64,000 nucleotides of DNA, taken from positions 62,001-126,000 of the forward strand of contig NZ_LQZA01000001.1 in NCBI RefSeq assembly GCF_001581925.1, read 5' to 3'. Origin of the DNA: Ferrovum sp. PN-J185 (lineage in GTDB: Bacteria; Pseudomonadota; Gammaproteobacteria; Burkholderiales; Ferrovaceae). A program made the position numbers and the translations under genes. The notes beneath the pieces were generated by a model. That model saw nothing but the letters and a program-made list of their open reading frames with translations, was not told where the DNA came from and ran no database searches. Below, piece after piece: positions 3,546 to 20,289 of this stretch (the first letter of the stretch is position 1; each line of letters begins with the position of its first letter).

Positions 3546-3599
3546 TAATAGATGGAGTTTACACATGAAAAAATCGCTACTCGCTTTAGCAGCTTTAGC
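3546..3599 (+). repeat. Left copy of 54-bp perfect inverted repeat (porin 1 start)
   Basis: The 54 bases covering the ribosome site, ATG and first 11 codons of porin 1 are identical, in inverted orientation, to 7898-7951 at the start of porin 2. The match begins at TAATAGATGGAG and ends with GCAGCTTTAGC. Sequence similarity continues beyond it at a lower level. It is a by-product of gene duplication at least, and could serve as a homologous crossover point. Confidence 0.9.
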
Positions 3600-4887
3600 A
3601 AGCGTTGCATCAGTTGCACACGCTCAAGATGGTATTCAGTTATACGGTGTTTTAGATGCTGGTGTTGTTCAAGCAACTAACAGCGGTAATATTTCACCTA
3701 ACTTTGTAACTGGTCAAACACCTACAAGTGCTCCTTACCTTGCTAATAGCACCCACTTAGGAACTGTTACAGGTATGATGAACGGTGGTGAATCCGCTAC
3801 TCGTTGGGGTATTAAAGGTAATGAAGATTTAGGTCAAGGCCGTAAAGTTGGCTTTACATTAGAATCTGGTTTCAGTATTAATAATGGTCAACTAGCAACC
3901 TCAGGTTTGGCTGGTTCTAGCAATATCTACTCAAATGCTGATACGAGTTTGAATGGTCAGTTGTTTGGTCGCCAAGCTCACTTGGATTTATCTGACCCAA
4001 CGTATGGTATGTTACAGATTGGTCGTGTTTATAACGTTCAAGCTGACATCATCACTGGCGGATACGATCCAGTTGACTTCCAAATGTTCTCACCAATTAA
4101 CTTCTCAGGCTCATATGGTGGTGGTGGCTTTACAGATAACTTCCGCGTTGATAATTCATTAAAGTATATTAAAAACTACGGAAACTACACCTTTAAATAC
4201 TTACATTCATTTGGTGGTATTTCAAATAGTTATGGTGCAAGAAGTTCCGATCAAGCAAGTTTGGGCTATGAAAATGCTCGATTTGGATTACAAACAGCAT
4301 ATGAGTACACACATGATGTAAGCAATATTGGTTTCCCAGGCACTTTCACGAGCTCGGCAATTTCTACAGGAGCTTCTGGAGTTCCAATTCCAAATTCTGT
4401 AAACGTATCATATTTTGATTTACGTTCATTCATGATAGCTGGCAAATACAACTTTAACAGTAAATTCACTGTAAAAGGTGGTGTTGAATTAATTCAATAC
4501 TCTGCACCTAGCAATTTAAGTGCAGACCAGGCCTTAACTAGCATTTACTCTTATACAGTGGCTAATGTTGGCTTAGCATCACAAAACGGTTTCAATAAAA
4601 CTGTTAATGTATTTTGGTTAGGTGGTAATTATAACGTTACAGATCGTATTAAACTTTCTGCTGGTTACTATTACGCTGCTCAATTGCCTGGTGCTGAGAA
4701 TGGCGTACAGTTAAATGGTGCTGATCGTTATGCGTCATTTGCAGCTGAATACTACTTAAGTAAACGTACAAACTTCTATGCTGCAGTTATGAATGATACC
4801 AAAACCGGTTCTGAAGCTTTAAATTACGGAATTGGTTACCCTTCAGTATTCAATACCTACGGTATTGGTGTACGTACCAAGTTCTAA
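3565..4887 (+). CDS. Trimeric general porin 1 (Gram-negative porin family)
   Basis: The 440-residue protein is an outer-membrane diffusion porin of the 16-stranded type typical of betaproteobacteria. It has a Sec signal peptide cleaved after AHA (about residue 20), begins the mature part with QDGIQLYGVLDAGV, shows the conserved ATRWGIKGNEDLGQGRKVGF and LFGRQAHLDL blocks, and ends on Phe (VRTKF) as outer-membrane barrels do. Start: ATGGAG at 3552-3557 precedes the ATG. A terminator follows. A second porin on the opposite strand (6658-7932) is roughly two-thirds identical by eye. The strands are conserved and the differences concentrate in segments expected to be surface loops, for example about residues 40-65 and 255-280. 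Confidence 0.95.
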   Translation: MKKSLLALAALASVASVAHAQDGIQLYGVLDAGVVQATNSGNISPNFVTGQTPTSAPYLANSTHLGTVTGMMNGGESATRWGIKGNEDLGQGRKVGFTLESGFSINNGQLATSGLAGSSNIYSNADTSLNGQLFGRQAHLDLSDPTYGMLQIGRVYNVQADIITGGYDPVDFQMFSPINFSGSYGGGGFTDNFRVDNSLKYIKNYGNYTFKYLHSFGGISNSYGARSSDQASLGYENARFGLQTAYEYTHDVSNIGFPGTFTSSAISTGASGVPIPNSVNVSYFDLRSFMIAGKYNFNSKFTVKGGVELIQYSAPSNLSADQALTSIYSYTVANVGLASQNGFNKTVNVFWLGGNYNVTDRIKLSAGYYYAAQLPGAENGVQLNGADRYASFAAEYYLSKRTNFYAAVMNDTKTGSEALNYGIGYPSVFNTYGIGVRTKF

Positions 4888-4930
4888 TCTCACACTGGCT
4901 TAGTCCAGTTAAGATTAGTGTAGTAAATAT

Positions 4931-4961
4931 AACCCGCTATAGAAATATAGCGGGTTTTTTT
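4931..4961 (+). terminator. Rho-independent terminator of porin 1
   Basis: A perfect 11-bp stem (AACCCGCTATA with TATAGCGGGTT), a GAAA loop and a following T-run lie 43 bases after the stop codon. The 40 or so bases between stop codon and terminator resemble the matching region behind porin 2, but the terminator stems differ in sequence. Confidence 0.93.
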
Positions 4962-5117
4962 GAGACCATATAAATTACAAATTTTTACAATTATTATTAT
5001 TTTTATATATTTACACACTTATAGATACAAATATTTTGAAATAAAAGAGTTAAGAAATTTAAACCATTTTTTTTTATTGTAGTTGTTAATACAAATTAAC
5101 CTATAAAGGTTGAATAT

Positions 5118-6476
5118 ATGGTAGTTAAAGAATATAGGCTTGGCCAAAAAGTAGACAATTATCTTGCACAAGATAACCATCTTATTTTACTGACCGGAAA
5201 ACTACTTTATGTAAACTCTTCGGACAGTAAATTATTTGATACTCCACAAATTATTAATCAAAATAAAGAGTACTTTTCTTCTAGTGATGAATTTTTTATA
5301 CCCATTGAAAACACCCAAATAGCAGTTGTTCCAAAAGAAGAAAATAAAAGCACTAAATCAAATAAAGTAACTGTAGATTCAAAGAATGACAAAGCTTTAT
5401 ATCAAAATCATACTTCGCTTGCGCAAACAGAGTCAGACTACCCCACAATTAAACAAGATTATTTTGATTTTTTAATCTCTAAAACAAAACAACATAGTCT
5501 ATTAGATGTAGTGAAAATTACTCTTCAAAACGAACAAGCTAAAGTATTAAGAAATGAAATTACACAACATACTTATAGAATGACATATTCAAGAATTTCA
5601 AAACATATTGTTCCCTTTTTTAAGAATTACATGGTTGAATCAATTGCCTATGAAGATATTAACAGATTCTATAATCACTTAAGTTTAGAGGGTTATAGCG
5701 CCATTACTTTGTCGCAGTACCTAGTTGCCTTAAAAAAGGTATTAGAGACCGCTAAAGCCCACTCTTGGATCAATGAAGTACCATATATACCTAAAGTTAA
5801 AGTACAAAAAAAAGCACGAGGATGGTTTACATTGTCTGAATATAAGACACTTTATAAAGAAAGTATAAAATTATCCTTATTTCATACCGTAATTACCCCA
5901 CCGTCTCATAGAAATAAACGTGATGGCATTTTCACAAATCAACAAAACTTAATAATTGGGTTAAATTGGGTCATTCGTTTTATGGTCAATTCATTTATAA
6001 GGCCCGTTGATCTTAAAATTATTCAACATCAACATATTGAAATTGTTAAAGGTAAATATACTTATTTAAGACTTAATCTTCCCGAAACCAAGAGACATAT
6101 TGGACAAATAATTACTTTACCTGGAGCGGTTTTTGCTTATCAAAGTTTAGTTAAGTATTACAAACAATTTAACCTTGCTAAGCCATCTGATTATTTGTTT
6201 TTACCAGAAATTAACGACCGTCAAGCTGCTATTACTATTCTTGAAAACAACTTTAGAAAATTACTTATTCATTGTAATTTAAGAGTTTCTACAAACGGTC
6301 TAAAAAGAACTCTCTATTCTTTACGTCATTCAGCAATTACATACCGTCTTTTATATGGTAAGAAAACTGATCTCTTAACACTTGCAAGAAATGCCCGGAC
6401 AAGTATAGATATGATTGATAAATATTATGCTAGCGAAGTCAGTGCGGAAATGAAAATAGATCATATTCATAGTTAA
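5118..6476 (+). CDS. Tyrosine recombinase / integrase-like protein between the porins
   Basis: The 452-residue protein has a C-terminal tyrosine recombinase catalytic domain (about 260-440) and a preceding SAM-like core-binding domain (about 150-220). Catalytic features: Arg in FIRPVDL (about 294), a probable beta-hairpin Lys in ETKRH, the box LYSLRHSAITYR where Tyr replaces the first His of HxxR, LARNARTSIDMIDKYY where Asn stands at the second His position, and the nucleophile Tyr near 435. This pattern resembles a known phage-type integrase subfamily. The first 130 or so residues are hydrophilic and match no domain I recognise. The gene is strikingly AT-rich compared with the core genes and is flanked by convergent porins, suggesting acquisition. 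A short dyad AACCT/AGGTT at 5098-5111 overlaps its ribosome site. Target sites are unknown. Confidence 0.88.
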   Translation: MVVKEYRLGQKVDNYLAQDNHLILLTGKLLYVNSSDSKLFDTPQIINQNKEYFSSSDEFFIPIENTQIAVVPKEENKSTKSNKVTVDSKNDKALYQNHTSLAQTESDYPTIKQDYFDFLISKTKQHSLLDVVKITLQNEQAKVLRNEITQHTYRMTYSRISKHIVPFFKNYMVESIAYEDINRFYNHLSLEGYSAITLSQYLVALKKVLETAKAHSWINEVPYIPKVKVQKKARGWFTLSEYKTLYKESIKLSLFHTVITPPSHRNKRDGIFTNQQNLIIGLNWVIRFMVNSFIRPVDLKIIQHQHIEIVKGKYTYLRLNLPETKRHIGQIITLPGAVFAYQSLVKYYKQFNLAKPSDYLFLPEINDRQAAITILENNFRKLLIHCNLRVSTNGLKRTLYSLRHSAITYRLLYGKKTDLLTLARNARTSIDMIDKYYASEVSAEMKIDHIHS

Positions 6477-6580
6477 GTAGTATTCATTTTAATTATCTTG
6501 ATTGTATTACTCAAAATTTTAGGTATTTTAAAAAACCACTGTTCCTACTAACTAATTATCCCTACAAAATTTATGTCATT

Positions 6581-6610
6581 AAAAAAACCCACTGTGTCGC
6601 CACAGTGGGT
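6581..6610 (-). terminator. Rho-independent terminator of porin 2
   Basis: On the minus strand, a 10-bp stem ACCCACTGTG/CACAGTGGGT with a 4-base loop is followed by seven T residues (A-run at 6581-6587 on the plus strand). It lies 47 bases behind the porin 2 stop codon. Confidence 0.93.
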
Positions 6611-6657
6611 CTAGTTTTACTACACTAATCTACAAACTGGACTAGGCCAGCGTGGGA

Positions 6658-7932
6658 TTAGAATTTAGTACGTACACCAATACCGTAGGTATTGAATGTT
6701 GAAGGATAGGCTGCACCTGCAGCAGCAGCACCTTGTTTAGTATCATTCATAACAGCAGCGTAGAAGTTTGTACGTTTGCTCAAATAATACTCAGCAGCAA
6801 CTGATGCATATTTATCGTAGCCATCACCACTGGTCCCACCAGCTTGTAGAGTGACCCAGTAGTATCCACCTGATAATTTAATTCTTTCAGATAGATTGTA
6901 ATCGGCACCTAACCAATACACGTTGTATTGTTTAGCTCCGCCGGCTGTGCTTGATGCAACAGTATAAGTATAAATACTTGTTAACTGTTGATCGGCTGCA
7001 AAATTACTAGGTGGTAAATACTGAACAAACTCATATCCACCTTTAACTGTTAATTTTTGGTTAAAGTTATACTTGCCAGCTAAAATATAAGATCTTAAAT
7101 CATTATAAGTTACAGCTACAGCGTTGCCTGGAACAAATGTAGTTGAATTAGCTGTAATTGTACCTGGCACCGCAAGTTCTGAAACATCATGAGTATACTG
7201 ATAACCACCTTGTAAACCAAAACGAGCATTTTCGTAACCTAAGGTAGCTTGGTCTGAACTTCTAGCATTGTAACTATTTGAGACACCACCAAATGAATGT
7301 AAATATTTAAAGGTGTAATTTCCGTAGTTTTTAATATATTTCAATGAGTTATCAATACGGAAGTTGTCTGTTGTACCACCACCACCGTAGAATCCTGAGA
7401 AAGCGATTGGTGAAAACATTTGGAAATCAACTGGATCATAACCACCAGCTACGATATCTGCTTGTAAGTTATAAACACGACCAATCTGTAATGTGCCATA
7501 GGTTGCATCTGATAAGTCTAAGTGTGCTTGGCGACCAAATAACTGACCGTTCAAGCTTGTGTCAGCAGCAGATAAGTTTGTGCTGCTACCAGCCAAACCT
7601 GCTTGTGCTAAAGTTCCGTTACCAATGCTAAAACCTGACTCTAAAGTAAAGCTCACTTTACGACCTGAGCCTAAGTCTTCTGAACCTTTGATACCCCAAC
7701 GTGTAGCTGATTCACCACCGTTCATCATACCTAAAACTGTGCCACGGTCAGCAGCTTTTGCTGAGGAGCCAGTAGGTACTAAACCGGTTACGAAGGTAGG
7801 TGAAATATCAGCAGCGTTTGTCGCTTGTACAACACCAGCATCCAAAACGCCGTATAACTGAATACCATCTTGTGCGTGCGCAACTGATGCAACGCTAGCT
7901 AAAGCTGCTAAAGCGAGTAGCGATTTTTTCAT
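6658..7932 (-). CDS. Trimeric general porin 2 (Gram-negative porin family)
   Basis: This 424-residue paralogue of porin 1 is oriented towards it. It has the identical signal peptide and first 39 residues, the same barrel blocks (ATRWGIKGSEDLGSGRKV, LFGRQAHLDLSD, KYIKNYGNYTFKYLHSFGG) and the same C-terminal VRTKF. Loop segments differ in length and sequence from porin 1, for example the region after TFVTG and the segment after THDVS. Ribosome site and upstream bases are shared with porin 1. DNA similarity also runs past the stop codon for about 45 bases, so the duplicated unit is larger than the coding region. It is an outer-membrane diffusion channel; solute preference cannot be read from sequence. 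Confidence 0.95.
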   Translation of the reverse strand: MKKSLLALAALASVASVAHAQDGIQLYGVLDAGVVQATNAADISPTFVTGLVPTGSSAKAADRGTVLGMMNGGESATRWGIKGSEDLGSGRKVSFTLESGFSIGNGTLAQAGLAGSSTNLSAADTSLNGQLFGRQAHLDLSDATYGTLQIGRVYNLQADIVAGGYDPVDFQMFSPIAFSGFYGGGGTTDNFRIDNSLKYIKNYGNYTFKYLHSFGGVSNSYNARSSDQATLGYENARFGLQGGYQYTHDVSELAVPGTITANSTTFVPGNAVAVTYNDLRSYILAGKYNFNQKLTVKGGYEFVQYLPPSNFAADQQLTSIYTYTVASSTAGGAKQYNVYWLGADYNLSERIKLSGGYYWVTLQAGGTSGDGYDKYASVAAEYYLSKRTNFYAAVMNDTKQGAAAAGAAYPSTFNTYGIGVRTKF

Positions 7933-7951
7933 GTGTAAACTCCATCTATTA
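7898..7951 (-). repeat. Right copy of 54-bp perfect inverted repeat (porin 2 start)
   Basis: This is the reverse complement of 3546-3599. It covers the first codons, ATG and ribosome site of porin 2. The two copies enclose about 4.3 kb holding both porins and the recombinase gene. Confidence 0.9.
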
Positions 7952-8277
7952 CAAATGAAGCTTATAAATTTATTATTTTATTTTTTAAATCATAAGGGTA
8001 GTTATGAAGTGGATTTATGATGGTTTACAAATGAGAAAATTATACTGTTTGTTACTAAATTAACCGTTAGATAATTTACAAATGATCAAATGAATATAAT
8101 TGTCTGAGCTGGTTTTTAACAAGTTGAAATATTTCTTTCATAAAGCAATATTTTTTCTTGTTAAAACTTAACAGTTATTAACATATATTTATTCAAGAAT
8201 CGGCTATGGTATCCACTTAATTTCTGTGACTAGAGTTGTTAGAATAAAACATTAAAGAAGAAATGGAAGGACCTACT
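7933..8277. promoter_or_regulatory. 345-base intergenic region between porin 2 and coq7
   Basis: This AT-rich divergent region must carry promoters for porin 2 (minus) and coq7 (plus). It contains TTACAAATGA at 7949-7958 and two exact copies of TTTACAAATGA at 8024-8034 and 8075-8085, start to start 51 bases apart, matching the motif upstream of porin 1. It also holds a long imperfect stem-loop (see 8114-8166). No convincing coding sequence was found, and no confident -10/-35 pair. Confidence 0.5.
8114..8166. repeat. Long AT-rich inverted repeat (stem-loop)
   Basis: TTTTAACAAG at 8114-8123 pairs perfectly with CTTGTTAAAA at 8157-8166. Inside it, AATATT at 8128-8133 pairs with AATATT at 8147-8152, with a 4-by-4 mismatch between the two stems and a 13-base loop. 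It could be a protein-binding dyad, a terminator-like element for an unseen small RNA, or a cruciform. Confidence 0.5.
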
Positions 8278-8907
8278 ATGATGATGACAGTTGATCAGTT
8301 GATTATTGCTTTTGATCGTGGTCTGAGAGTATTAGCAACTTCCCCTCAGTCAAAAAGGGCTACTCCAGCAAACGAATTTCAAGAAACCTCCCTTAGTGAG
8401 TCAGATCGACAGCATGCAGCACGATTAATGAGAATTAATCATACAGGTGAAGTATGTGCTCAAGCTCTTTATCAAGGCCAAGCACTAACAGCAAGAAGTA
8501 CTCAAACACGAGATGCATTAAAAAATGCTGCGCTAGAGGAAATTGATCATCTTGCGTGGTGTGAGCAGAGAATTAACGAATTAGGTGGACGGGTGAGTTA
8601 TCTCAATACGTTATGGTACTTAGGTGCCTTTAGTATGGGGGTTGCTGCTGGGATTGCAGGAGATGGTTGGAATTTGGCTTTTCTTAAAGAAACAGAAAAA
8701 CAAGTTGAAAACCATTTAAATAGCCATTTACAAAAACTAGCTGTTGAAGATTTAAAGACCAGAGCTATTGTTCAAGTCATGCGAGATGATGAAAAGGGGC
8801 ACGCAGAACTTGCTCAATCTTTGGGGGCCTATGAGTTTCCACGATGGTTGAAAGAGGCTATGAAACTCAGTTCATCGATTATGACTAAAACTGTCTATTG
8901 GGTTTAG
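8278..8907 (+). CDS. coq7: 2-polyprenyl-3-methyl-6-methoxy-1,4-benzoquinone monooxygenase (Coq7)
   Basis: This di-iron hydroxylase performs the penultimate hydroxylation in ubiquinone synthesis at the inner membrane. Iron-binding motifs are visible in order: NHTGEV, EEIDHLAWC, KQVENHLNSHL and DDEKGHAELA, supplying the Glu and ExxH ligands of a ferritin-like four-helix bundle. A hydrophobic stretch (WYLGAFSMGVAAGIAG) probably associates with the membrane. The ATG at 8278 was chosen because GGAAGG sits about six bases upstream; an in-frame ATG at 8263 would add five residues and also has purine-rich DNA before it. From 8278 the protein is 209 residues, normal for bacterial Coq7. It stands alone, divergent from porin 2 and before argB. 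Confidence 0.93.
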   Translation: MMMTVDQLIIAFDRGLRVLATSPQSKRATPANEFQETSLSESDRQHAARLMRINHTGEVCAQALYQGQALTARSTQTRDALKNAALEEIDHLAWCEQRINELGGRVSYLNTLWYLGAFSMGVAAGIAGDGWNLAFLKETEKQVENHLNSHLQKLAVEDLKTRAIVQVMRDDEKGHAELAQSLGAYEFPRWLKEAMKLSSSIMTKTVYWV

Positions 8908-16633: not shown

Positions 16634-18736
16634 ATGATCAAGCCCATTAAGTTACGCGCCTTAGCGCTATTATGTTTTTACCCCATATTGTCCTTTGCTG
16701 AGGATAATCCCCCCGTGGTAATGATGAGTCCCGTGATTGTGGATGCCACACCACCAGAGAGTTCAGGGCGCAATCGTGTAAGCCAAGAGGGAGTGTCTCA
16801 GTATCATTTTTCTGATACAGATATTCAGTCTCTTCCGCAAGGAGACAATACCCCACTGAATGAAGTCCTCTTACAAGCACCTGGTGTGGTACAGGATGGC
16901 TTTGGTCAAATTCATGTGAGAGGTAATCATGGCAATTTACAATATCGTTTAAATGGTATTCTCATTCCCTCTGGTTTAAGTGGCTTTGGCCAGATTTTTG
17001 ATTCACGCATGATCTCTAGCATGAATCTATTAACAGGAGCGTTGCCAGCAGATTATGGTTATGACACGGCAGGAGTGGTGGATATGCACACCGCAGGAGC
17101 CAAATCGGATCCCTATGGTGAAGTGTCGGTAAGTGCCGGCACACGTAATTATTTTCAGACAGGAATTGTGGCTAATGGCTCCCGTGGCAAATTAAGCTAT
17201 AACCTATCGGCCTCGTGGCTGACTAATGAAATTGGTATTAATAATCCCCAAGCAGGGCTGAATGCGCTTCATGATCGAACGCAACAAGGAAATGGTTTTG
17301 GTTTTCTTGCCTATGATGTGAATGCTGATGAACAAATCAGTGTTATGTTTGGACAGGCTAATAATGCGTTTCAAATTCCTAATCGGGTTGGCTTAACACC
17401 ACTCTACAATTCAACCATAACGCCTGCACCACCATCGAGCCAATTAAATGATCAACAAAATGAATTAAATAGTTTTCAGGTACTGACCTTAAAAAGTCAT
17501 TTATCTTCATCACTAGATTCACAATGGTCTGTTTATCATCGTCTCAGTCAAATTCAATATCTACCCGATGGTCAGTTAGGTGATCTATTTTTTACCGGGG
17601 TGAGTAGTAATATTACCCGTCGCAATGAGGCGTTAGGTATAGAAAATGATACGCACTATGTGGTTAATTTACAGCACACTCTGTCGTGGGGGTTAATGGC
17701 TCAAAATGAGCGCTTTTTAACTGACAATAATTCTCAGGTGTATTACCTAAATCAGTTAAATGCCAATAACATTGCCTCAACATTGCCTGCTAATGTGGTG
17801 AACAATACCAATTCAAATAGCCGTTATTTGGGCGTTTATGTATCTGATCAATGGCATTTTATGCCACTATGGACCATGAATTATGGACTACGTTTTGATC
17901 AAGTGGCTGGTATTACTAATGCCAATCAATTAAGTCCACGTGTAAATTTCTTATATCAACCTAATCAGCGTACTACCTGGCATGTGGGCTATGCTAATTA
18001 TTTCACCCCTCCTGCTAATGAGTTAATTAATACGACCACTGTCACAACCTATGCCAATACCACTAACGCGTCACCTTCGGGAGCCAACTTAACTGTTCAA
18101 GCAGAACGTACACAATATGTTGATATGGGAATTGATTACCGTTTGAATAGTGACTGGAATATCAATTGGGATAACTACTACAGTTCCGTCAAAAGCCTAC
18201 AAGATGAAGGACAATTTGGTAACGCGTTAATTTACTCTGCCTTTAATTACAATCTCGGTGTTATTTATGGCAGTGAATGGTCGGCAAATTACCATCATGA
18301 TCGATGGTCGGGAAATATTAATTTTTCAGTAAATCGAGCTGAAGCCAATGGGGTTCAAACAGGACAATATAATTTCCCTCAAAATGAAATTAATTATATT
18401 AGCCAAAACTGGGTATATTTAGATCATGATCAGCGCTATACCTTATCAGGCTCACTTCTTTATCGCGGACAATTAGCGACCTATTCGTTAGATGGGTTGT
18501 TTGGTAGTGGTTTACGTAGTGGCTTTGCTAACACACAAACATTACCCGCTTATGCCACACTCAATGGTTCAATTAGTCATCGTTTTAAGTCTTATCACGA
18601 TGTAGAAACACGTTTGACTGTGTTGAATATATTTGACCGCAGCTATTTACTGCGCGATGGAACAGGAATTGGCGTAGGGGCGCCACAATATGGATTTAGA
18701 CGAACTATTCTGATGACGATGAGTTATCCTTTTTAG
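16634..18736 (+). CDS. TonB-dependent outer-membrane receptor
   Basis: The 700-residue protein is an active-uptake receptor of the outer membrane. It has a Sec signal peptide (cleavage about residue 22), a short N-terminal segment MMSPVIVDATPP that may act as TonB box, a plug domain (LNEVLLQAPGVVQDGFGQ, then HVRGNHGNLQYRLNGI and LTGALPADYGYDTAGVVDM), and a 22-strand barrel ending in a terminal Phe (MTMSYPF). The ATG at 16634 is preceded by AGGAGTGAGG; an in-frame GTG nine bases earlier was rejected. The substrate is not obvious. The preceding small His/Cys protein hints at a metal or metal complex. Its last 32 bases overlap the 3' end of xerC on the other strand. No Fur box or cobalamin riboswitch is visible upstream. 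Confidence 0.92.
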   Translation: MIKPIKLRALALLCFYPILSFAEDNPPVVMMSPVIVDATPPESSGRNRVSQEGVSQYHFSDTDIQSLPQGDNTPLNEVLLQAPGVVQDGFGQIHVRGNHGNLQYRLNGILIPSGLSGFGQIFDSRMISSMNLLTGALPADYGYDTAGVVDMHTAGAKSDPYGEVSVSAGTRNYFQTGIVANGSRGKLSYNLSASWLTNEIGINNPQAGLNALHDRTQQGNGFGFLAYDVNADEQISVMFGQANNAFQIPNRVGLTPLYNSTITPAPPSSQLNDQQNELNSFQVLTLKSHLSSSLDSQWSVYHRLSQIQYLPDGQLGDLFFTGVSSNITRRNEALGIENDTHYVVNLQHTLSWGLMAQNERFLTDNNSQVYYLNQLNANNIASTLPANVVNNTNSNSRYLGVYVSDQWHFMPLWTMNYGLRFDQVAGITNANQLSPRVNFLYQPNQRTTWHVGYANYFTPPANELINTTTVTTYANTTNASPSGANLTVQAERTQYVDMGIDYRLNSDWNINWDNYYSSVKSLQDEGQFGNALIYSAFNYNLGVIYGSEWSANYHHDRWSGNINFSVNRAEANGVQTGQYNFPQNEINYISQNWVYLDHDQRYTLSGSLLYRGQLATYSLDGLFGSGLRSGFANTQTLPAYATLNGSISHRFKSYHDVETRLTVLNIFDRSYLLRDGTGIGVGAPQYGFRRTILMTMSYPF

Positions 18737-19628
18737 CTTTATTTTTGGCGCGCGGATGAGTCTGGTCGTAGATTTTAGACAAATGCTGAAAATCCAAATG
18801 GGTATACACTTGAGTGGATACGATGCTGGCATGACCTAACATTTCTTGTACAGCACGCAGATCTCCACTGGACTGTAAAACATGAGAAGCAAAGGAATGA
18901 CGTAACACATGGGGATGTACATGGTCAGGGAGCCCCACTTGTTGAGCTCTTAAGGTTATCCGCTGTTGAATGCTTCTCATACTTAAGCGTTGTCCATCAC
19001 GGCTTAAAAAGAGCGCGGGATTATCTTTGCATTGAGCTTGCGCTATCTTGAGCCAGCGCTCTAACGCCTCTTTGGCAAAACGTCCAATTGGGACGATGCG
19101 AGTTTTAGCACCCTTACCCGTGACCCTCACTGTATTCTCATCCCATTGAATATCCTGTCGATTTAATGAAGCGAGTTCCTGTAGACGCAATCCTGATGAA
19201 TAAAATAGTTCTAATAGCGCATGATCACGCAGTGCAATAGGGTCACTCCCTAAGTCAGACATTAACAATTGGGCTCGATCAGGAGAGAGAGCGTGAGGAA
19301 GATTTTTCTTGACCTTAGGTGAGCGTACATCATGACACGGATTCTGAGTGACTATTCGTTGGCGAATTAAAAATTGATAAAAACCACGCCATGCTGATAG
19401 TAGGCGACTTAAACTTCTCTCACCTAAGCCTTGCGCGTGAAGTGTTGCGATAACCTGGCGAATGAGTGGAGGTTTAGCCTCAGTAACATTAAGTGGATTG
19501 AGGTGTTGCGCTAATAACAATAAATCACGATGGTAATGTTTGACGGTTAGTAGTGACAATCGTCGCTCCTCAGCGAGGTAGCGACAATAGCGGTCTATCT
19601 GTGGGTCAGTCGGTGATATCTTGCTCAT
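18705..19628 (-). CDS. xerC: Site-specific tyrosine recombinase XerC
   Basis: XerC works with XerD at the dif site to resolve chromosome dimers. The 307-residue sequence has the usual SAM-like N-terminal domain and a catalytic domain with all active-site residues in place: Arg148 (SSGLRLQEL), Lys172 (GKGAKTR), His240 and Arg243 (HVLRHSFASH), His266 (MLGHASI) and Tyr275 (QVYTH). The ATG at 19628 was chosen; it lies 23 bases inside the DUF484 gene, and an in-frame TTG at 19655 is the alternative. The order dapF-DUF484-xerC is conserved in many proteobacteria. The 3' end overlaps the TonB receptor gene tail to tail. Confidence 0.95.
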   Translation of the reverse strand: MSKISPTDPQIDRYCRYLAEERRLSLLTVKHYHRDLLLLAQHLNPLNVTEAKPPLIRQVIATLHAQGLGERSLSRLLSAWRGFYQFLIRQRIVTQNPCHDVRSPKVKKNLPHALSPDRAQLLMSDLGSDPIALRDHALLELFYSSGLRLQELASLNRQDIQWDENTVRVTGKGAKTRIVPIGRFAKEALERWLKIAQAQCKDNPALFLSRDGQRLSMRSIQQRITLRAQQVGLPDHVHPHVLRHSFASHVLQSSGDLRAVQEMLGHASIVSTQVYTHLDFQHLSKIYDQTHPRAKNKAKKDNSSSSE

Positions 19629-20289
19629 GAGCGTGACGTTTAATACTGAATGCAATTAATTCAGCAAGGCGCTCTAGGTAGAGTGTGCCCATCCCTGAAA
19701 AAAAACGTTTACTGTCAGGAGAGCCTAATAATAAAGCGCCAAAGCAACGATGTTGTTTTAGTGGTAATAATGCAAAAGACTGACAGGTTGCCTCATCAGA
19801 AGACAACCAGGTATGAATATCATGAGGTAGTTCACTCCCGCATAGTGGTTCGCTTAGCTCACTTAGGGTATGTTGAATTTCGTGACTCACTGCTAAAAAT
19901 TCGCTAGCTTCCTCTTTATGGGTTTCATCAGAACTAACACCCCATAATCGTAATGTGACATAGGGAACACTAAAGTGTTCTGACAAGGCATGATAGGTGG
20001 TTGCCAAGACGCCAGAGAGTTGTCGTTGACTAATTAACTCGCAACTAAAGTGATGAATTTTGTTACTGATATCATCATTTTCTTTAGCGTAGCTAAGTAG
20101 TTCGTTTAATTTACTTTCCAGTGCGCGGTTTTTTTCACGAAAAGCAATTAATTGCCGCTCATTAAGAGACACGGCGTGACTGCCATGAGGATGAGGGATA
20201 GACAGTTGTGTGAGTAATTGACTGTGCTCATTAAAAAATTCTGGATGTAGGGTTAACCAGTTTGCTACTTGTTTGGATGAAAAAGACAT
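19606..20289 (-). CDS. DUF484 family protein
   Basis: The 227-residue protein is cytoplasmic and of unknown biochemical role. It opens with the family's conserved VANWLTLHPEFFNEHSQLL, followed by a heptad-rich segment (LIAFREKNRALESKLNELL, about residues 47-66) likely to be a coiled coil, and a GAF-like C-terminal half (FALLPLKQHRCFGALLLGS). Such proteins sit between dapF and xerC across proteobacteria, as here: two bases separate it from dapF and its end overlaps the xerC start. The constant neighbourhood suggests a link to cell division or wall synthesis, but no function can be read from the sequence. Confidence 0.85.
   Translation of the reverse strand: MSFSSKQVANWLTLHPEFFNEHSQLLTQLSIPHPHGSHAVSLNERQLIAFREKNRALESKLNELLSYAKENDDISNKIHHFSCELISQRQLSGVLATTYHALSEHFSVPYVTLRLWGVSSDETHKEEASEFLAVSHEIQHTLSELSEPLCGSELPHDIHTWLSSDEATCQSFALLPLKQHRCFGALLLGSPDSKRFFSGMGTLYLERLAELIAFSIKRHAHEQDITD

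Follow-up and report, generated by a model that had tools for sequence, protein, structure and literature searches.

Two facing porin genes around a tyrosine recombinase in Ferrovum sp. PN-J185: a candidate outer-membrane protein inversion locus with relatives in freshwater Burkholderiales

In the fim and mpi systems, tyrosine recombinases flip a short promoter element of surface structures between short inverted repeats. The surface-layer inversion of Campylobacter fetus is instead RecA-dependent homologous recombination, and the conserved 5' ends of the surface-protein genes are the crossover regions behind fixed promoters. The Campylobacter inversion is also mentioned in PMC11852207. The SusC/SusD shufflon of Bacteroides fragilis has a tyrosine recombinase, Tsr0667, and inverted repeats that overlap the start codons of the surface-protein genes (PMC11852207; PMC5729914; Nakayama-Imaohji 2009 as cited there), and its inversion alters which gene stands behind which promoter (PMC11852207; PMC5729914). 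For Dichelobacter nodosus, a site-specific inversion among the omp1 genes is described (Moses et al. 1995, as cited in PMC5903667 and PMC11852207).

The locus presented here lies in a window of 64,000 nt from Ferrovum sp. PN-J185 (contig NZ_LQZA01000001.1, positions 62,001 to 126,000, forward strand), and its nearest counterparts in mode of action would be, by analogy, the SusC/SusD shufflon of Bacteroides and the omp1 locus of Dichelobacter. With the shufflon it has in common a tyrosine recombinase tied to outer-membrane protein genes, the recombinases being likened by description, and repeats at the gene starts; with omp1, also compared by description, it shares proteobacterial outer-membrane protein genes and inversion between copies. 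It differs from both in gene family, in lineage and in having the recombinase inside the inverted segment: the shufflon is built from TonB-dependent SusC/SusD pairs with an invertible promoter and belongs to a different phylum, whereas the window has two porins of the trimeric type (Porin_4). Shared with the outer-membrane inversion systems are the inverted surface-protein gene ends that flank the segment in the window and, between species of Polynucleobacter, both orientations of the segment against fixed flanks. The likeness to fim and mpi is limited to a tyrosine recombinase, inversion and a surface structure; unlike there, what moves at the porin locus is the recombinase gene together with entire 3' parts of the porins. 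On the whole we lean, with modest confidence, towards the view that this is an outer-membrane protein inversion locus, in which facing porins under different promoters surround a dedicated tyrosine recombinase. A literature search with partial coverage found nothing relevant on a porin recombinase in Burkholderiales, Polynucleobacter or Limnohabitans.

In the window (Table 1), porin 1 and the recombinase share a strand, with porin 1 upstream, and porin 2 is convergent with porin 1. Both are above the Pfam gathering cut-off for PF13609 (Porin_4), and the 1.89 Mb genome has no other porins of their type. The segment with the recombinase is rich in AT, with 27-30% GC against 36-43% in the surroundings. 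Reading frames, Pfam and GC content thus confirm what a first, sequence-only reading of this DNA had described, namely facing porins around an AT-rich recombinase, and the bounds it gave to the locus (3546 and 7951) match the outer ends of the identical 5' blocks. The porins form inverted repeats at 3529-3725/7772-7968 (87% identity), 3760-4319/7184-7743 (79%) and, at the 3' ends, 4837-4910/6635-6708 (89%), and a short inverted repeat continues beyond them at 4912-4927/6616-6631 (100%). Compared zone by zone, the nucleotide identity of the two is 43% in the promoters, 97% from -19 to +75 (including the perfect 54-nt run of the 5' blocks), 69% in the body, 89% over the last 36 nt and 25 nt beyond the stop, 68% over the 65 nt that follow this shared zone and 46%, which is background, farther out. 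Given a whole-gene synonymous distance of about 1.1, the likeness of the matched ends goes far beyond what chance, or a shared descent of the entire gene, would produce, and the ends have been homogenised or held under constraint independently of the body; the matched starts, ends and 3' flank that had been claimed from the letters alone therefore stand. The 3' dyad is on its sequence a candidate for either a recombination site or a 3'-UTR hairpin, and Rfam gave no match for its copies in the window. A second, unrelated tyrosine recombinase at 18705-19655 (-) resembles the housekeeping enzyme XerC/XerD.

Table 1. The porin-recombinase-porin locus and its adjoining frame gene, in positions of the window
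Feature	Position	Strand	Remarks
Porin 1 (left)	3565-4887	+	ORF of 440 aa; Porin_4, Pfam PF13609, E 2.9e-26
Tyrosine recombinase	5118-6476	+	ORF of 452 aa; Pfam phage-integrase SAM-like N-terminal domain
Porin 2 (right)	6658-7932	-	ORF of 424 aa; Porin_4, Pfam PF13609, E 2.4e-28
Porin 1 5' block (ribosome-binding site, start codon, signal-peptide codons)	3546-3599	+	54 nt, equal to the inverted copy
Porin 2 5' block	7898-7951	-	inverted copy of 3546-3599
Porin 1 3' dyad past the stop, CTAATCTCACACTGG-CTTAGT-CCAGTTAAGATTAG	4884-4918	+	limit of the sequence common with porin 2
Porin 2 3' dyad past the stop	6625-6661	-	inverted copy of 4884-4918; sole other copy in the genome
Porin 1 terminator-like hairpin	4932-4962	+	sequence unlike the porin 2 hairpin; from sequence reading
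Porin 2 terminator-like hairpin	6581-6610	-	from sequence reading
coq7, right-hand outer frame gene	8263-8907	+	ORF

Pfam detects solely the SAM-like N-terminal domain in the recombinase, and the best that NCBIfam offers is a weak match to Xer, far under the cut-off. An AlphaFold2 model, built from 26 relatives, has mostly high confidence in the catalytic region, and its best Foldseek matches are lambda Int (3.1e-8) and Cre (1.1e-7), both at a match probability of 1.00, so the catalytic domain is predicted to have the fold of the lambda Int/Cre/Xer type of tyrosine recombinases. R295, K325, Y400-x-x-R403, N425 and Y437 are invariant in the 26 relatives. Checked against the usual R-K-HxxR-H/W-Y active site, the histidine positions are taken by Y400 and N425 in all of them, which from the alignment looks like a consistent variant of the active site and not decay. 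Two close pairs of relatives (L072/L073 and L158/L159) have a dN/dS of 0.07-0.16, a value that indicates purifying selection. Taken together, the intact predicted fold, the invariant residues and the low dN/dS mean that the recombinase is being maintained and is probably active, with a slightly variant active site. Some lineages are losing it, to judge by stop codons within the genes of G037 (C17:279678-280842), G164 (C2:327369-328081), G130 (C2:331-1395) and G158 (C1:118794-119834).

Relatives of the recombinase were found in Burkholderiaceae, Comamonadaceae, Oxalobacteraceae and Methylophilaceae. In family members flanked by 1.7 kb or more on each side, a porin adjoins the recombinase in 27 of 37 loci, compared with 0 of 29 for other tyrosine recombinases, the latter being more distant recombinases from the same searches, where two seeming matches were fragments of family members. 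A porin profile places the porin no more than 600 nt away in 25 of the 37, and two Methylobacillus-type loci add a more distant upstream Porin_4, recognised by Pfam in L083 and by a near-identical neighbour in L087; Pfam also assigns neighbours of the recombinase relatives in Methylobacillus, Oxalobacteraceae and Limnohabitans to Porin_4. There are two layouts. In the first, found in the window, in its congener G029 and in Polynucleobacter, a porin on the same strand precedes the recombinase, which as a rule faces another porin; in the second, found in Limnohabitans, Oxalobacteraceae and some Polynucleobacter, it is divergent from the porin, and the Limnohabitans-type loci have a single porin and no facing pair. 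Limnohabitans parvus II-B4 (L086, L096) has a stretch of about 33 kb with four recombinase genes, three pointing one way and one the opposite, and at least three of them are divergent from porins, which suggests a tandem multiplication of porin-recombinase pairs. Nine draft contigs (L068, L070, L071, L075, L078, L081, L097, L099 and L103) end a few hundred bases from the recombinase, as would be expected if the porin copies are near-identical repeats or if both orientations are mixed in the sample.

The simpler alternative put forward at the outset was an orphan integrase left over from a chance insertion between duplicated porins, and the AT-rich composition of the gene and the decay seen in the four genomes named above would suit such an origin. 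It is very improbable, however, when the recombinase recurs beside porins in many genera and across several families, when its catalytic residues are intact in 26 relatives with a dN/dS of about 0.1, when a convergent pair is found only in its company, and when it occupies the same place in two species of the window's genus at 65% recombinase identity. We also rejected an integrase of a prophage or integrative element, as the porins would be its sole cargo, the repeats are inverted and not direct, and no relatives of the recombinase were found in IMG/VR viral contigs. A plasmid origin was likewise discarded, the plasmid matches being just 25-34% and to other recombinases, and so was membership of an anti-phage system, for which PADLOC gave no match. 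A truncated distant recombinase in the same genome (C3:730-1587, L002; 31% identity), beside an IS3-type transposase ORF at a contig end, is probably a mobile-element remnant outside the porin-recombinase system.

In the congener G029 the whole porin-recombinase-porin layout is kept, with the recombinase at the same locus position and in the same orientation as in the window. The right porins, also at the same position, are 94% identical as proteins while their synonymous distance is saturated at 1.7, so that a recent transfer of porin 2 between the two can be set aside in favour of vertical descent under constraint, and exchange of porins between the lineages of the window and G029 appears to be rare or absent. 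The left porin of G029 is without the 3' dyad and the right one retains only a weak dyad; a lipoprotein-like gene (L003:597-1307, weak DUF3108-like match) stands between the left porin and the recombinase. Many members of the window's family have porins immediately upstream of coq7, and in those free of the recombinase these are direct tandem porins. The closer relative G031 (85% DNA identity in the right flank) has no recombinase and one porin, in direct orientation and adjoining coq7.

Polynucleobacter offers a homologous site within a fixed frame, petA-mscL-degS on one side and sel1-tatC-tatB-his on the other. The recombinase is present in about 20 of 186 genomes, patchily at this one locus, and two convergent porins enclose it in all nine of the complete loci. 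All 18 sampled loci free of the recombinase have a single porin, always in the right-hand orientation, and no traces of a left promoter or a recombinase were found in them, except that L181 has a short match at its right-hand promoter; in the loci sampled, a left porin always comes with a recombinase. That the left porin comes and goes with the recombinase, patchily and at one locus, together with the several recombinase-porin pairs in one region of Limnohabitans parvus, would also agree with a small mobile module of recombinase and porin that inserts beside a resident porin, the inversion being a side effect of the facing copies. We find this rather improbable: the same position and a conserved left-promoter core of 29-44 nt in several species speak for an old presence with repeated loss, direct-repeat insertion ends were looked for and none found, and no match was found on IMG/VR viral contigs and only distant ones on plasmids.

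Relative to the frame, the recombinase is on the + strand in L074, L076, L155, L156, L157 and L164 and on the - strand in L158, L159, L163 and L069, which amounts to at least three changes of orientation on a species tree of flanking proteins in which several rows are incomplete. Whichever way the recombinase points, left promoters resemble each other, as do right promoters, while the porin tails sort by their relation to the recombinase and not by side. Four closely related species put figures on this: promoter identity is 66% on the same side versus 27% on opposite sides, and the tail after the hairpin is 76% identical for the same relation to the recombinase versus 37% for the opposite one. 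In L074 and L069 the right-side promoters are 96% identical and the tails 86% identical across sides. Since promoters stay with the frame and tails move with the recombinase, the exchange point lies within the porin unit, from the ribosome-binding site to the 3' hairpin. The porin bodies of the four species are 76% identical within a genome versus 49% in every comparison between species, and are thus homogenised within each genome. These patterns indicate that the porins do recombine by inversion on an evolutionary time scale, as seen between species of Polynucleobacter. Both an inverted recombinase and swapped 3' halves, which the sequence-only reading had proposed to look for in relatives, were found in these homologues, so its idea of an inversion holds between Polynucleobacter species, with 5' ends and promoters fixed to the frame and tails and recombinase flipped, but gains nothing from the window's own genus, where both genomes have the same orientation.

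In the isolate G130 the recombinase is on a 10.8-kb contig that ends in inverted porin 3' ends, and the outer contigs share 1185 identical bp. This run begins precisely with the TTTGGAG of the ribosome-binding site, and the promoter in front of it differs between the two contigs. Such copies show a very recent exchange of a whole porin body, which inversion and gene conversion fit alike. Between the facing porins of L162 (G040) and L161 (G130) lie petA-mscL, and in G130 also degS and an operon for a glutamate-type ABC transporter, so the inverted segment can reach about 10-12 kb and include housekeeping genes.

Directly after the porin stop, 79 of the 186 Polynucleobacter genomes carry a hairpin-forming dyad, CTAATT-N4-GCTAGC-N4-GCTAGT, often followed by AATTAG, nearly always in one copy per genome (for example G044:C1:104852-104877) and related to the 3' dyad of the window. 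An inverted pair of dyads on one contig was found in 8 of 13 genomes with the recombinase and in 0 of 65 without it, counts that take no account of shared ancestry. As a recombinase-specific site the 3' dyad had to be rejected, because these 65 recombinase-free genomes carry it too, usually once and, where inspected, at the single porin; the dyad could instead be a former site or a hairpin of the 3'-UTR, and in Polynucleobacter it is possibly an element of the porin 3'-UTR. The 5' block is likewise conserved in recombinase-free genomes, and neither of the two can therefore be assigned as the site of the recombinase. For the same reason RecA-dependent exchange remains a serious rival, and it is the main rival to inversion driven by the recombinase: RecA-dependent recombination and gene conversion would act between the inverted porin paralogues, as modelled by Campylobacter fetus, and the recombinase would be a passenger or otherwise employed. 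The 5' block of about 95 bp, 94-99% identical within most genomes, is enough for homologous recombination, as are the perfect 1185-bp copies of G130, the exchange seemingly occurs anywhere from ribosome-binding site to hairpin without one sharp point, and the conserved porin ends exist without the recombinase. Facing porin pairs, however, were found only together with it (in none of the 18 sampled loci and none of the 65 genomes that lack it), members of the window's family that are free of it carry porins in direct tandem, and a passenger would be expected neither beside porins across several bacterial families nor under purifying selection. We therefore hold the RecA explanation to be unlikely, but well worth keeping in mind.

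In the explanation that we prefer, the recombinase would be the catalyst of the inversion. A crossover between the inverted porins, anywhere from the block of ribosome-binding site and signal peptide to the 3' hairpin, would flip the segment with the recombinase and both 3' tails, and would join the porin behind each promoter to the downstream part of the other porin. Repeated exchange or gene conversion would then homogenise the two porins and yield hybrids. Our comparison covers one genome per species and showed no switch within a strain. Inversion would also take place within strains, and it would presumably serve to vary the surface pore, for instance as a defence against phages or to alter permeability. 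The body identity of porins between species is 52% both with and without the recombinase, so the recombinase is rejected as the source of the loop diversity between species. The sequence-only reading had held that the same loop diversity in porins without a recombinase nearby would speak against it, and this is the case between species; given the equal diversity there, a role of the locus would be within populations.

Most known cases in which outer-membrane protein genes are inverted come from host-associated bacteria such as Bacteroides, Dichelobacter and Campylobacter. We tentatively hypothesize, at somewhat less than an even chance, that a new family of porin-dedicated tyrosine recombinases in freshwater Burkholderiales and Methylophilales inverts porin cassettes, from ribosome-binding site to 3' hairpin, between two promoters, and that the resulting variation of the major porin within populations is plausibly a bet-hedging of phage receptor or permeability. 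If true, the same strategy would be applied to the general porin of abundant free-living freshwater genera (Polynucleobacter, Limnohabitans and Ferrovum-like), where phage predation and nutrient uptake would be the likely pressures, and a family of otherwise "orphan" integrases would be given a likely job.
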